NCBI GenBank assembly: GCA_018820315.1
Contig: JAHJOQ010000056.1
Location: 1 to 45,040 of the forward strand
DNA from: Candidatus Zixiibacteriota bacterium
GTDB lineage: Bacteria; Zixibacteria; MSB-5A5; JAABVY01; JAHJOQ01
Length of the DNA: 45,040 bases
Reading direction: 5' to 3'
The notes beneath the pieces are model-generated. The model did no database searches. It worked only from the letters and a program-made list of their open reading frames with translations, and had not been told where the DNA came from. Position numbers and translations under genes: made by a program. Each line of letters opens with the position of its first letter. Position 1 is the first letter of the stretch. Shown here piece by piece: positions 12,721-16,999 of this stretch.

Positions 12721-13026
12721 GCATCTCTCCCATGGTGACTATGTATCTATCGGATGCCCTTCCTATAGTGTATCGGCAAATTAACCGCATGTATGAGAGG
12801 ATGCAGGGTAGTCACTTGCGACCACTGCGCCACCGCATTTGCACCCTTCATTGGTCGAAGATACTTCTTGACAGAACTTGAATCAGGCCATAATATTAAA
12901 GTAGTAACTGACGTTACCCCCTCTTTACTCGCCGTCGAGCAGACAGCATTAAACGAGTTATGTCCAGATGCGTCTTATTATTCGGTTAGATAATAGTGTG
13001 CTTTTCCATATCAAGGAGTGTGTGTT
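12721..13026. other. Divergent intergenic region
   Basis: This is a 306-bp spacer between the TIGR00300 gene and the sigma-54 activator operon. I see no gene and no sigma-54 consensus (GG-N10-GC in a TGGCAC/TTGC context) on the plus strand, so the activator operon is probably not itself sigma-54 dependent. Confidence 0.4.
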
Positions 13027-13362
13027 ATGAAAGCCAGCAAAGTGATGGTTCTGGTTGTGTGTCTGGCGTTCCTTCTTGGAGCAGTCCCGTCGTCGATTGC
13101 CTGGGATGGACGCGTAGTTCCTCTGATCTCGACTCCTGATGTCGATGATCCGGAGCCGATCACCGAGGGTGATCCGTGGGATGACAACGATGACGGCGGT
13201 CCTGATGGTGCAAACATCGGACCGAATATCATCATCGTCAATCAGCTCGGGCTGCCATGGTGGTTCACGAAGTATCATGTCGTGATTTCCAAGGTCAAAC
13301 CGGCAAACGTTGACGCGACCGACCGAAAGGTAATTAGGAAAAAAACCACCACAAGCAAGTAG
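13027..13362 (+). CDS. Small secreted acidic protein, co-transcribed with a sigma-54 activator
   Basis: A 111-residue protein. ATG 13027 is chosen over an in-frame GTG at 13018 because AAGGAG (13013-13018) then has normal spacing. Residues 1-26 are a signal peptide (MKASKVMVLVVCLAFLLGAV, cut near SSIAWD). The mature part is acidic in the middle (DDPEPITEGDPWDDNDDGG), contains a PNIIIVNQLGLPWWF segment, and ends in a basic tail RKVIRKKTTTSK. No family is recognised. Its stop lies 8 bp before the regulator gene, so the two form an operon. A secreted small protein paired with a TPR-type regulator could be a signal or its target. That is inference. Confidence 0.75.
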   Translation: MKASKVMVLVVCLAFLLGAVPSSIAWDGRVVPLISTPDVDDPEPITEGDPWDDNDDGGPDGANIGPNIIIVNQLGLPWWFTKYHVVISKVKPANVDATDRKVIRKKTTTSK

Positions 13363-13370
13363 TTAGGTAT

Positions 13371-15596
13371 ATGTCCACACCAGATAGCCCAAAATTCAGA
13401 GCGGAGCTTCTGCAGTTAGAGCTGTATAGCTCCAATCGTGATCTGAAAAAGGCTGCGGCTAAAGTCGTGGATCTCGAATCGGCGTATCCGAATCTGTCGC
13501 ACAATTCACCGCGCTTCTTGCTTTTGAAGGCCACTCTGTTCAATCAGACAGGCGACTATATGGAGGCAATTTCGACAGCTTCTAAAGCATACGATCTTGT
13601 CAGGGATACCTCAGATCACGAACTCCTTGCTCTTGTCCAGACTGAGCTCGCGAGAGCCAGTCAGTACTTAGGAGATACAGATCGCAGCGAACGCGAGTAT
13701 AGGGATGTTGCGGCTACTTACCGACGCTGCGGAAATACTTTAGGAATCATAGACACGCTCAACAAGATAGCAGGCATCCGCTATCTCAGGGCCGACTATG
13801 ACGAAGCCTGCAGCCTGCTCGGTGAAGCGGGCAGATGTGCTGAAGAGCTCGGCGATGAGTTACGCCTGGCCAGAATCAGCGGTAACCTTGGACGAATTGC
13901 GATCCGTCAGGGAAAATTCCACGATGCTGTCGATAAGCTGTCTGTTTCCATCGAGAAGCATGGCAAGCTCGGCAATCATGTAAGTCTTGCGCGATCATTC
14001 CTATCCCTCGCGCTTGTTGAGATTCGCCTGGCGAATTTCGACTCTGCGAGGCGCAATCTCAAGAAGGCTCTGTTGATTATCCGCGAGCAGACGCTGCGGC
14101 GCGAACTTGCGATCTATTTCGAGTACAAGGGAGAACTGCTTCTGGCGCAGGGAAATCTCGACAAAGCGCTGAGTGCGGCAAACAACGCAATCGAGGCGGG
14201 TTCCGCAGTGGCTGCCGAAGGCGACCTCCTCAGTCAATCGGAGCGGTTGAAAGGTCAGATTCTCTTCAAGCTGCGCCGTATTGATGAGGCAGAGGAATCA
14301 GCGAACAAGGCTCTGCATGTTGCGGAGAGAATCGACGAAAAGCTCGAAATCGCCGAGAGCGTCAAGCTTCTCGCTGAGATTTCTGACGCAAAACGTTGTG
14401 AGACCGACAGTAAACAGCAGTTGGAGTATTCAGTTGCATTGCTGCGCAGTCTCGGCACAATCTATGAGCTTGCCGATTGTTTTCGGCGAGCATGCGAATT
14501 GAGTTGGGTGGATGTGTCCGCCAAGGCTCATTATCAGCAGACTGCAATCGAGCTGTACAGTACGATTGGACTCGACTTGGATATGTTCAGGAAACCTGAG
14601 GCGATTGAGGCGGCTCCTCAGAACAGACATATATATATTGTCACAGGAGCTACTGGCGAATCGGTGCGGATTGCGACGGCGAACCGCCAGATGCGCTCGA
14701 TATTGAGGGTCGTCAATCACTGCAAGGATTCCGACATTCCGATTCTGATTACCGGCGAGACAGGGACCGGCAAGGACCTCCTTGCGAAATATATCCACCA
14801 TTCGTCGATAAGATCGGGGGAACCGTTTATCCCGGTCAACTGCTCCGCGATACCGAAAGATCTCGCGGAGAGCGAATTGTTCGGGCATGTCAAGGGATCA
14901 TTCACTAATGCTGTCGAGGATAAGCAGGGACTTGTGTCAGCTGCCGATGGTGGCACCCTGTTCCTGAATGAAATCGGTGAGCTTCAGAAATCGCTCCAGG
15001 CGAAACTGCTTGGCTGTCTGGAAGAAAAACGAGTGGCAAGAATCGGTGACACAGTCGCCCACCCAGTCAATTTCAGATTGATCACCGCGACCAACCGCGA
15101 TTTGGAGGAAGATGTCTCCGAAGGCGCGTTCCGTCAGGATCTTTACTTCAGGATAGCGGTGATGACTCTCGAACTTCCCCCCCTCCGACAGAGAGGCGAG
15201 GATCTGGTGGAACTGATCAAGTTCTTCCTCTGCGAAAATGGAATCCGTCTCGGTGATGTGAATGGGATTTTCGATCATCAGAGTATCCCGAATATTCTCG
15301 GGTATGGCTGGCCCGGCAACATACGCGAACTGAGGAACGAGATTCAGCTCTGCGCGCTGGAGTATCCCGGAGATCCTGTCGGCGTTGTGACATCGCTCGA
15401 AGCCAGACTCTCCAAGCCGATCGATTCGAAAGGCATCGAATCGGCAAGTGGCCTTTCCCGGCAACTCGCTGAATTCGAACGGAACCGTATAAGAGAGGCG
15501 CTAAAGTTGACAGATGGCGTCATCCGCAGAGCCGCGCAGATCCTGCAGATTCCGGAGGCGACACTGCGCTCCAAGATGAGAAGACACGATATGTGA
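13371..15596 (+). CDS. TPR-domain sigma-54-dependent transcriptional activator
   Basis: A 741-residue regulator. Residues 1 to about 400 are tetratricopeptide-type helical repeats (for example DYDEACSLLGEAGRCAEEL and FDSARRNLKKALLII), replacing the usual receiver or GAF sensor. Residues about 425-655 form the AAA+ domain that remodels sigma-54 RNA polymerase: Walker A GETGTGKD (about 460), the sigma-54 contact loop GSFTNA (about 507), Walker B TLFLNEIGEL (about 529) and the arginine-finger region FRQDLYFRI (about 588). Residues about 697-741 form a Fis-type helix-turn-helix. Two key motifs differ from consensus: the loop is GSFTNA rather than GAFTGA, and Walker B has Asn where Asp is normal. 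A near-perfect sigma-54 promoter lies 235 bp downstream. Translation is probably coupled to the gene before. Confidence 0.88.
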   Translation: MSTPDSPKFRAELLQLELYSSNRDLKKAAAKVVDLESAYPNLSHNSPRFLLLKATLFNQTGDYMEAISTASKAYDLVRDTSDHELLALVQTELARASQYLGDTDRSEREYRDVAATYRRCGNTLGIIDTLNKIAGIRYLRADYDEACSLLGEAGRCAEELGDELRLARISGNLGRIAIRQGKFHDAVDKLSVSIEKHGKLGNHVSLARSFLSLALVEIRLANFDSARRNLKKALLIIREQTLRRELAIYFEYKGELLLAQGNLDKALSAANNAIEAGSAVAAEGDLLSQSERLKGQILFKLRRIDEAEESANKALHVAERIDEKLEIAESVKLLAEISDAKRCETDSKQQLEYSVALLRSLGTIYELADCFRRACELSWVDVSAKAHYQQTAIELYSTIGLDLDMFRKPEAIEAAPQNRHIYIVTGATGESVRIATANRQMRSILRVVNHCKDSDIPILITGETGTGKDLLAKYIHHSSIRSGEPFIPVNCSAIPKDLAESELFGHVKGSFTNAVEDKQGLVSAADGGTLFLNEIGELQKSLQAKLLGCLEEKRVARIGDTVAHPVNFRLITATNRDLEEDVSEGAFRQDLYFRIAVMTLELPPLRQRGEDLVELIKFFLCENGIRLGDVNGIFDHQSIPNILGYGWPGNIRELRNEIQLCALEYPGDPVGVVTSLEARLSKPIDSKGIESASGLSRQLAEFERNRIREALKLTDGVIRRAAQILQIPEATLRSKMRRHDM

Positions 15597-15651: not shown

Positions 15652-15690
15652 ATACAGCCGGTTATCATAGGATACCGGCTGTATTCGTTT
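15652..15690 (+). terminator. Intrinsic terminator of the sigma-54 activator operon
   Basis: ATACAGCCGGT (15652-15662) pairs perfectly with ACCGGCTGTAT (15674-15684), followed by TCGTTTGTTG. It lies 56 bp past the activator stop codon and insulates the downstream sigma-54 promoter. Confidence 0.75.
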
Positions 15691-15828
15691 GTTGTGGAGC
15701 ATATTCTGCGCTTCGGACTTTTGCGGTACATGCGACGGCAATAGCCGCCGAACATCCACATTGTGTGTAATCAGTTTATAGACAGCGAGTTACAGCCATT
15801 GAATCCGAGTGAAAGCCCGACAGCCTCT

Positions 15829-15844
15829 TTGGCACAACTGTTGC
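15829..15844 (+). promoter_or_regulatory. Sigma-54 (-24/-12) promoter
   Basis: TTGGCACAACTGTTGC matches the sigma-54 consensus TGGCAC-N5-TTGC, with GG (15831-15832) and GC (15843-15844) separated by exactly 10 bp. Transcription should start near 15856. The activator encoded immediately upstream is the obvious candidate regulator. The intervening 15690-15828 DNA would carry any enhancer sites, and a CGGC-AATA-GCCG hairpin-like repeat is visible there. Confidence 0.75.
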
Positions 15845-15855
15845 GTAAGAGAAGG

Positions 15856-15980
15856 TCGGCATATACATAGAAGTAAGTCTCTGGTTGGCTCGGTTTGGGC
15901 AAGCTGAACTGGATCTTGCTATCAAGCTATGGTTTTGGGCGGTCCCTATCTACTGCGGCAGGTAGATAGGGACTTTTGTA
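15856..15980 (+). ncRNA. Predicted sigma-54-driven short transcript (sRNA or tiny peptide mRNA)
   Basis: This stretch runs from the predicted sigma-54 start to a strong terminator, about 125 nt, and contains no conventional gene. A TTG-started frame of 26 codons (15884-15964) ends inside the terminator stem but has only a poor ribosome site (GAAGTAAG), so a regulatory RNA is the simpler reading. No known RNA family is recognised. Boundaries are inferred from promoter and terminator only. Confidence 0.5.
15942..15978 (+). terminator. Strong intrinsic terminator ending the sigma-54 transcript
   Basis: A perfect 12-bp stem, GTCCCTATCTAC (15942-15953) with GTAGATAGGGAC (15962-15973), with an 8-nt loop, followed by TTTTG. 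No upstream protein gene lacks its own terminator, so this one serves the short transcript. Confidence 0.8.
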
Positions 15981-16147
15981 TGCCCGGTTATAATGACTCG
16001 AAATCTTGAGTTTTGTGCAATCAGGTAAATGTCTTTCTTAGAGAATCGTGAAGATTCACTCTCCGGAATTAATATTTGCATTTAGCTCCAAAATGCTTAT
16101 CTTCGCCGCAATTAACCAAGCACCAAATAGCAATGGAGGAAAATCGA

Positions 16148-16660
16148 ATGAGGACACTAATTTCTATTCTTGCTATCCTGCTCCTGATATTCGCGGCAGG
16201 ATGTGGCGGCGATGCTGAAGAGACTCCCGAATCCAAAATGGAAGAGGCGGTTCAGCCGAAAACCACACCCCCACCGGCATCACAACCTGCAGCAGCCGGT
16301 ATTACGATGGCAATCGGTGATACTGTCACGACCGCGAGTGGTCTGAAGTATGTCGACATAACAGTTGGCGATGGACCATCACCGACCAACGGCCAGATGT
16401 GCGAGATGCACTACACCGGCTGGCTGACAAACGGCACCAAGTTTGACTCCTCGCGCGACAGAGGCCAGACATTCCAGTTCCCGATCGGTAAAGGTAGTGT
16501 AATTAAGGGATGGGATGAAGGCATAGCGTCGATGAAAGTTGGCGGCCAGAGAATGCTGATTATCCCATCCGACCTCGCCTATGGTCCCGGCGGCCGACCG
16601 CCTGTAATTCCGCCGAAATCGACACTAATTTTCGATGTCGCGCTGATCGGCGTTAAGTAG
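16148..16660 (+). CDS. FKBP-type peptidyl-prolyl cis-trans isomerase lipoprotein
   Basis: A 170-residue protein from ATG 16148, with TGGAGG eight bases before. Residues 1-19 are a lipoprotein signal with lipobox FAAGC (Cys19), then a Pro/Ala/Gln linker to about residue 55. Residues about 57-170 are one FKBP domain: MHYTGWLTNGTKFDSS, FPIGKGSVIKGWDEG, and the C-terminal AYGPGGRPPVIPPKSTLIFDV. Catalytic-pocket aromatic residues of FKBPs are present (Tyr in HYTG, Phe in KFDSS, Trp in KGWDEG, Tyr in AYG). It should accelerate proline isomerisation during folding of exported proteins, anchored to a membrane on the periplasmic side. It is a single gene. Confidence 0.92.
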   Translation: MRTLISILAILLLIFAAGCGGDAEETPESKMEEAVQPKTTPPPASQPAAAGITMAIGDTVTTASGLKYVDITVGDGPSPTNGQMCEMHYTGWLTNGTKFDSSRDRGQTFQFPIGKGSVIKGWDEGIASMKVGGQRMLIIPSDLAYGPGGRPPVIPPKSTLIFDVALIGVK

Positions 16661-16765: not shown

Positions 16766-16999
16766 GGTGGAACATGTTCCACCGATTCTTCTGGCACACT
16801 TCTGCCTTAGCGTTCACCGCAATTCTCCGAAGCTCGGGCTTGTAGGCGAATGAACGATGAGGATCAACAAGGTGGTGGAACACGTTCCACCGACTCTTTT
16901 AGCACACTTCTGCCACAGCGTTCACCGCAATTCTCCGATGCCCGGACTTGTAGGCGGATGAACGATGAGGATCAACAAGATGGTGGAACGCGTTCCACC
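16766..16999. repeat. 108-bp tandem repeat with perfect palindromes, two copies plus a partial third
   Basis: Units start at 16766, 16874 and 16982, a period of exactly 108 bp. Each starts with an 18-bp palindrome, GGTGGAACATGTTCCACC, GGTGGAACACGTTCCACC or GGTGGAACGCGTTCCACC, and the third copy is little more than the palindrome. The gap 16661-17077 otherwise holds nothing recognisable. Because 108 is divisible by three, the repeat is open in frame with purL, but the purL start at 17078 makes translation of it unlikely. Confidence 0.85.

Follow-up and report, generated by a model that had tools for sequence, protein, structure and literature searches.

The question raised by this locus is what a sigma-54 promoter serves when it stands immediately behind the gene of a sigma-54 activator and no ordinary gene separates it from the strong terminator hairpin that follows. 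The window, meaning the whole stretch of 45,040 nucleotides analysed here, is contig C56 of a 3.78-Mb Zixibacteria genome in 173 contigs (G000). We propose, with a probability of about 0.78, that positions 15829-15980 constitute a gene for a sigma-54-dependent small non-coding RNA, which would be the dedicated output of the TPR/AAA+ activator encoded upstream. The basis of the whole analysis is comparative sequence, in which the promoter, a candidate enhancer, the terminator, their conservation, the lack of an open reading frame and the single copy can all be read; the closest relatives number only 13. These 13 genomes (G000-G007, G011, G020, G026, G042, and G052, several of them incomplete MAGs) provide eight loci from the same order, four from the source genome's own family (f1) and four from its sister family (f2), together with four loci from the family f6 and one from f16 (G052). 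The activator was traced through 132 genomes of the class, and a DNA search for the stretch 15829-15980, covering 58 relatives, returned strong matches in exactly three other f1 genomes (E 1e-18 to 1e-26).

The activator operon is headed by a putative sigma-70-like promoter, TTGACA-N17-TAATAT (12868..12896, forward strand), which recurs in f1 and f2. The leader common to these two families presumably starts with GTAACTGAC at about position 12904 of the forward strand, and the long 5' leader (12904-13026) is conserved between them; f2 also has a palindrome resembling an enhancer, located 217-283 nt ahead of where the operon starts. The first gene (13027..13362, forward strand) encodes a small exported protein of 111 aa from its ATG, consisting of a signal peptide, an acidic GDPWDDNDDG motif, a hydrophobic stretch, and a basic tail, for which no Pfam or NCBIfam match was found. 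Such a gene stands before the activator in every relative and before nearly all activators of the paralogous family. Exported proteins of about 95-132 aa with the same layout, the acidic motif being HPWQDD, GDPWDD, or HPWGGD, form a Zixibacteria-wide family encoded directly upstream of TPR-sigma54 activators; the members tested gave no Pfam and no convincing NCBIfam match. The activator itself (741 aa; 13371..15596, forward strand) is composed, according to Pfam, of a TPR superhelix (residues 1-400), a sigma-54 AAA+ domain (436-605), and an HTH_8 domain (699-738). The TPR part was predicted by AF2 with a pLDDT of 89, and the predicted fold resembles LGN, MalT domain III (TM 0.75), and Rap (best TM values 0.71-0.74, by target length). 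In the activators of f1, f2, and f6 the GAFTGA motif, present in its usual form in most paralogous activators, is replaced by GAFTNA or GSFTNA, and the Walker B DE by NE. These substitutions were counted against the proposed reading, as they bear on the ATPase and on the contact with sigma-54. Behind the activator a terminator-like hairpin with a weak U-tract (15652..15684, forward strand) recurs in all f1 genomes with a different sequence, and some read-through past it is possible. The placement of the promoter between two terminators, claimed in the first-pass annotation, thus holds for the hairpins at 15652-15684 and 15941-15974, with the reservation that the first has a weak U-tract.

The promoter is TTGGCACAACTGTTGC (15829..15844, forward strand), whose exact GG-N10-GC spacing, reported initially, was borne out; it is the only zero-mismatch TGGCAC-N5-TTGC among the 45,040 bases of the window, and a -24/-12 element of this sort is what sigma-54 sRNA genes of the CrcZ, GlmY, and Qrr kind carry. 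Genome-wide, near-consensus TGGCAY-N5-TTGC sites number 34 versus 9 for the backwards control. A GG-N10-GC site lies 210-252 nt past the activator stop in 13/13 closest loci (f1, f2, f6, f16), and beyond it in the f2, f6, and f16 relatives comes a short stretch and then a strong hairpin. The tree groups f1, f2, and f6 in a single clade (support 1.0), and the site was present in all of its members examined there; G011, which a filter removed from the tree, carries the site too, and G052, which also has it, is placed outside the clade. G022, another genome not in the clade, has no site, and its next gene begins 28 nt past the stop. The finding of rpoN in 11 of the 13 genomes was counted in favour of a sigma-54-dependent sRNA. 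Relatives having the activator and lacking both promoter and terminator had been named in advance as evidence against the proposal, and a conservation search in relatives had been suggested; in the clade the opposite was found, with every genome keeping the activator, the candidate enhancer, the promoter, the short RNA, and the strong hairpin even as the following gene varies.

The proposed dependence on the neighbouring activator is supported by a candidate enhancer (UAS), GCATATTCTGCG (15699..15710, no strand assigned), located 103 nt past the activator stop. From its first base to the GG of the -24 element is 132 nt, a distance matching the sites 100-200 bp upstream of sRNA genes of the CrcZ, GlmY, and Qrr kind. 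Each of the eight genomes of f1 and f2 has the palindrome GCADWWWYTGCG 95-103 nt past the activator stop, and in f6 a similar palindrome, of the GTGAGATTTCACGCG type, occupies the same place. The automatic listing of inverted repeats was noisy, and from it we retained only the motif whose position is constant across several families. The combination of this enhancer, a spacer of N98-126, and the sigma-54 site occurs once per genome in 8/8 f1 and f2 genomes, only at this locus, with 0 occurrences of the backwards control. Because these loci themselves supplied the pattern, its recovery there is built in, and the information lies in its absence everywhere else. Judged by sequence, the locus would be a private activator-target pair, and the original suggestion of an activator with a dedicated target is supported by the site in 13/13 loci and the unique enhancer-promoter combination in 8/8 genomes. 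Several genomes also show a possible second site, half-similar, near the activator stop codon.

The predicted sRNA is about 125 nt long (15856..15980, forward strand), its start being placed about 11 nt past the -12 GC, and it consists of an imperfect 5' hairpin in the body, a G/U-rich single-stranded linker, and a terminator. The 13-base linker AUGGUUUUGGGCG (15929-15941) is identical in 4/4 f1 genomes. The strong terminator hairpin (15941..15974, forward strand) has 14 counted pairs followed by the U-tract TTTTGT, and its helix is retained through compensatory changes. The covariance check proposed at the outset gave such pair changes in three families, 3 in f1, 9 in f2, and 2 in f6. All four f1 genomes share one gene order, in which the small exported protein and the activator are followed by the hairpin, the sigma-54 promoter, the RNA with its strong hairpin, and the FKBP lipoprotein. 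RNA identity within f1 is 62-74%, versus 57-66% for the activator coding sequence, and the flanks are less well kept, with 39-49% for the spacer before the RNA and 18-53% for the stretch after it. Of the four f2 RNAs, the f1 covariance model recovers three where they had been predicted, with weak scores (E 0.006, 0.014, and 0.14), and the f6 model matches one f1 RNA (E 0.008); these weak cross-family matches suggest that the RNAs of f1, f2, and f6 are probably homologous and quick to change. The remaining weak model matches (E 0.0006-0.03) are to distant families, and three of the five span only part of the model. The RNA is present in one copy per genome; the covariance-model search found no second copies in the class and no strong-score match outside the family. 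Two observations were counted against the proposed reading: between families the RNA sequence is barely alignable, and the RNA body folds at shuffle level (z 0.08), the exceptional stability belonging to the terminator alone. The final hairpins of f6 and f16 are without a good U-tract, so that the description as a terminator-bounded transcript of about 125 nt is strict, as a prediction, only in f1 and f2; with this limit, the sequence is that of a short, terminated, non-coding transcript. No conserved ORF was seen between promoter and terminator, where the first-pass annotation had noted no ordinary gene.

The conserved stretch could also be explained without a free-standing sRNA. The short RNA might be the leader of the FKBP lipoprotein gene (16148-16660), with the terminator as its attenuator; FKBP is indeed the next gene in 4/4 f1 genomes, and f8 relatives have a similar arrangement of promoter, RNA, and hairpin before shell-protein genes. 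However, FKBP owns a sigma-70-like promoter, TTGCAT-N16-TATCTT (16076..16103, forward strand), whose box is kept in 4/4 f1 genomes, 44-47 nt ahead of the start codon, and the stretch between RNA and FKBP is unconserved (18-53%). Moreover, the gene beyond the RNA varies by family, being FKBP, other genes followed by LpxC, or a convergent gene, and f2 and f6 keep promoter and RNA though the next gene is another one or faces the opposite way, all of which makes an FKBP leader very unlikely. Between FKBP and the FGAM synthase-like gene, a tandem 108-bp repeat (16766-16981) with 90% identity was observed, each copy of which begins with a palindrome of the GGTGGAAC(A)(T/C)GTTCCACC type; a third palindrome is located at 16982-16999. 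A transcript coding for a tiny peptide, the other possibility raised initially beside an sRNA, is hardly credible: the f1 genomes share AUGGUUUUGGGC without change, and the window has an open TTG frame of 26 codons, but frames shift among relatives, start codons are not conserved, the AUG frame passes through the terminator stem, no Shine-Dalgarno sequence precedes the shared AUG, and no peptide is shared in f2 or f6. With neither a conserved frame nor a ribosome site, the peptide was rejected, and of the two original options the sRNA is the one that the sequence favours.

It may further be asked whether the RNA matters at all, or is a by-product of DNA conserved merely as an enhancer and promoter platform, serving for example as a decoy or in autoregulation of the activator. 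The fast divergence of the RNA between families while promoter and enhancer persist would fit such a platform, as would the extra palindrome upstream of the f2 operon; yet no other stretch of the locus is as well conserved within f1 as the RNA, which also has compensatory changes, and we consider this explanation unlikely. More weight, though still of a doubtful kind, can be given to an RNA that titrates an RNA-binding protein such as CsrA instead of pairing. CsrA was found in 13/13 genomes and Hfq in none of the 13; the G-rich linker and G-rich terminator loops recur across families otherwise differing in sequence; and f2 RNAs have 2-4 GGA motifs versus about 1-2 in shuffles. In f1, by contrast, the 2-3 GGA motifs compare with 1.8-2.8 in shuffles, showing no enrichment, so a CsrA sponge is unsupported there, and a sponge of the CsrB/RsmZ type, marked by enriched GGA, was rejected.

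The mechanism that we favour for the sRNA gene can be outlined as follows. In enhancer-binding proteins the AAA+ domain works on the sigma-54 polymerase from upstream sites. Here, the TPR domain would receive a signal, and we hypothesise, as one possibility, that its ligand is the exported HPW/DPW protein encoded in the same operon, or a derivative of that protein. The activator would bind the palindrome at 15699-15710, probably together with the second, weaker site near the stop codon, and contact the sigma-54 polymerase at 15829-15844, and the promoter would then release an RNA of about 125 nt with its end at 15975-15980. We infer transcription, activator binding, and the trans action of the RNA from this arrangement, and our view of the signal and the targets is a guess. 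The RNA would most likely act by base pairing via the G/U-rich linker AUGGUUUUGGGCG, without Hfq, and the combination of 5' hairpin, G/U-rich linker, and terminator suits a pairing sRNA. In four genomes, near-complements of the invariant 13-mer add 0-3 sites per genome, a number similar to that of the control, and a trans target recognised by near-perfect complementarity to it was rejected at these counts. Pairing of the RNA with the operon leader (z -1.4 to +0.6 against shuffles) is not consistently above expectation and that with the FKBP leader (z -2.7, 0, 0, and +2.3) is inconsistent; both autoregulatory operon-leader pairing and FKBP-leader pairing were rejected for lack of a consistent excess over shuffles.

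The logic of a sigma-54 sRNA gene beside the gene of its activator is already known. In Pseudomonas and Azotobacter, the sRNA gene crcZ lies directly downstream of cbrAB as a separate unit with a CbrB-driven sigma-N promoter and conserved synteny (PMC8871633). The predicted Zixibacteria sRNA gene is likewise a separate unit that comes right after the gene of a sigma-54 activator; however, CbrB is a two-component regulator and CrcZ binds the Crc/Hfq complex, whereas here a TPR sensor is encoded and no Hfq was found. In Enterobacteria, GlmY adjoins the sigma-54 activator operon qseEGF/glrKQR, has several UAS, and its signalling requires the lipoprotein QseG (PMC6075780), which resembles the present locus in that the sRNA gene stands beside an activator whose operon also encodes an exported protein, although GlmY sits upstream of the operon and QseF is phosphorylated by a kinase. 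The Qrr1 promoter of Vibrionaceae (TGGCA-N7-TGC), served by LuxO/SypG, has two UAS upstream and an sRNA output (PMC10162802); a sigma-54 promoter, an upstream UAS (here a candidate), and an sRNA output are thus shared, but the Qrr1 activators are two-component proteins in a quorum-sensing circuit. The window RNA has no Rfam match at E<=1, and hence none to the CrcZ, GlmY/GlmZ, or Qrr models: with no sequence relation to GlmY or Qrr1, and no Hfq in 13/13 genomes for a CrcZ-like action through Hfq-Crc, it is outside the three families. The claim that no family matches therefore stands for the sequence, though not for the general kind, and the locus is best explained as analogous to CrcZ/CbrB and GlmY/QseF while unrelated in sequence. 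A Rfam gathering search of 20 related loci returned a cobalamin riboswitch only (L072, 44-246, minus strand), upstream of a paralogous activator locus. The pairing of a TPR receptor with a small exported protein encoded next to it, and the predicted Rap-like fold, also recall the RRNPP receptors (Rap, PlcR); unlike them, the Zixibacteria TPR is fused to a sigma-54 AAA+ domain, and peptide maturation and binding are a conjecture here. In the open-access literature searched, nothing was found on sigma-54 in Zixibacteria, and the one paper that combines Zixibacteria with small RNA is, judged by title and abstract, on another subject.

This locus is one member of a wider paralogous family whose parts are a small HPW/DPW exported protein, a TPR-sigma54 activator, and a downstream sigma-54 promoter. 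The paralogous activators, five more of which are encoded in the source genome, have 720-880 aa and often a sigma-54 site 157-500 nt downstream; among 47 TPR-activator loci, 37 sites have the canonical spacing, compared with 7 when the spacing is shortened by one base and 3 when it is lengthened by one. Several paralogs are without the site, and the downstream outputs vary, including other RNAs, a radical-SAM protein, lipoproteins, and microcompartment shell genes. In three loci of the source genome (L098, G000:C124; L101, G000:C153; L102, G000:C127), about 150-200 nt right after the sigma-54 promoter are highly conserved (CAGCCACU...AGUGGCUG, ...CCGGGUUC...GAGCCCGG...), with no Rfam match. 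At another (L100, G000:C60), whose activator has its own small exported protein, the sigma-54 site lies 213 nt past the activator stop and upstream of a radical-SAM gene, and this locus is possibly a peptide-modification system. In the f8 loci L085, L087, L089, and L090, the activator is followed by a sigma-54 site, an RNA of about 100 nt with the terminator loop CGAGGGGAG, and BMC-type shell genes, the shell proteins being Pfam-confirmed in L087. We tentatively propose that the Zixibacteria modules are parallel private RRNPP-like signalling channels, of which this clade's would have as its only output a fast-evolving, Hfq-free, trans-acting sRNA.

The literature examples found (CrcZ, GlmY, and Qrr) come from gamma-proteobacteria and have two-component activators, and CrcZ acts through Hfq. 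The Zixibacteria locus would place the same circuit logic in an uncultivated phylum where the sensor is a TPR domain, Hfq was not detected, and the RNAs are unrelated in sequence, which suggests either an independent invention or an old circuit in which the RNA has been turned over. The unique pair of enhancer and promoter offers a clean means to single out the sigma-54 targets private to orphan activators, and the existence of paralogs indicates a family of activator/private-promoter modules.
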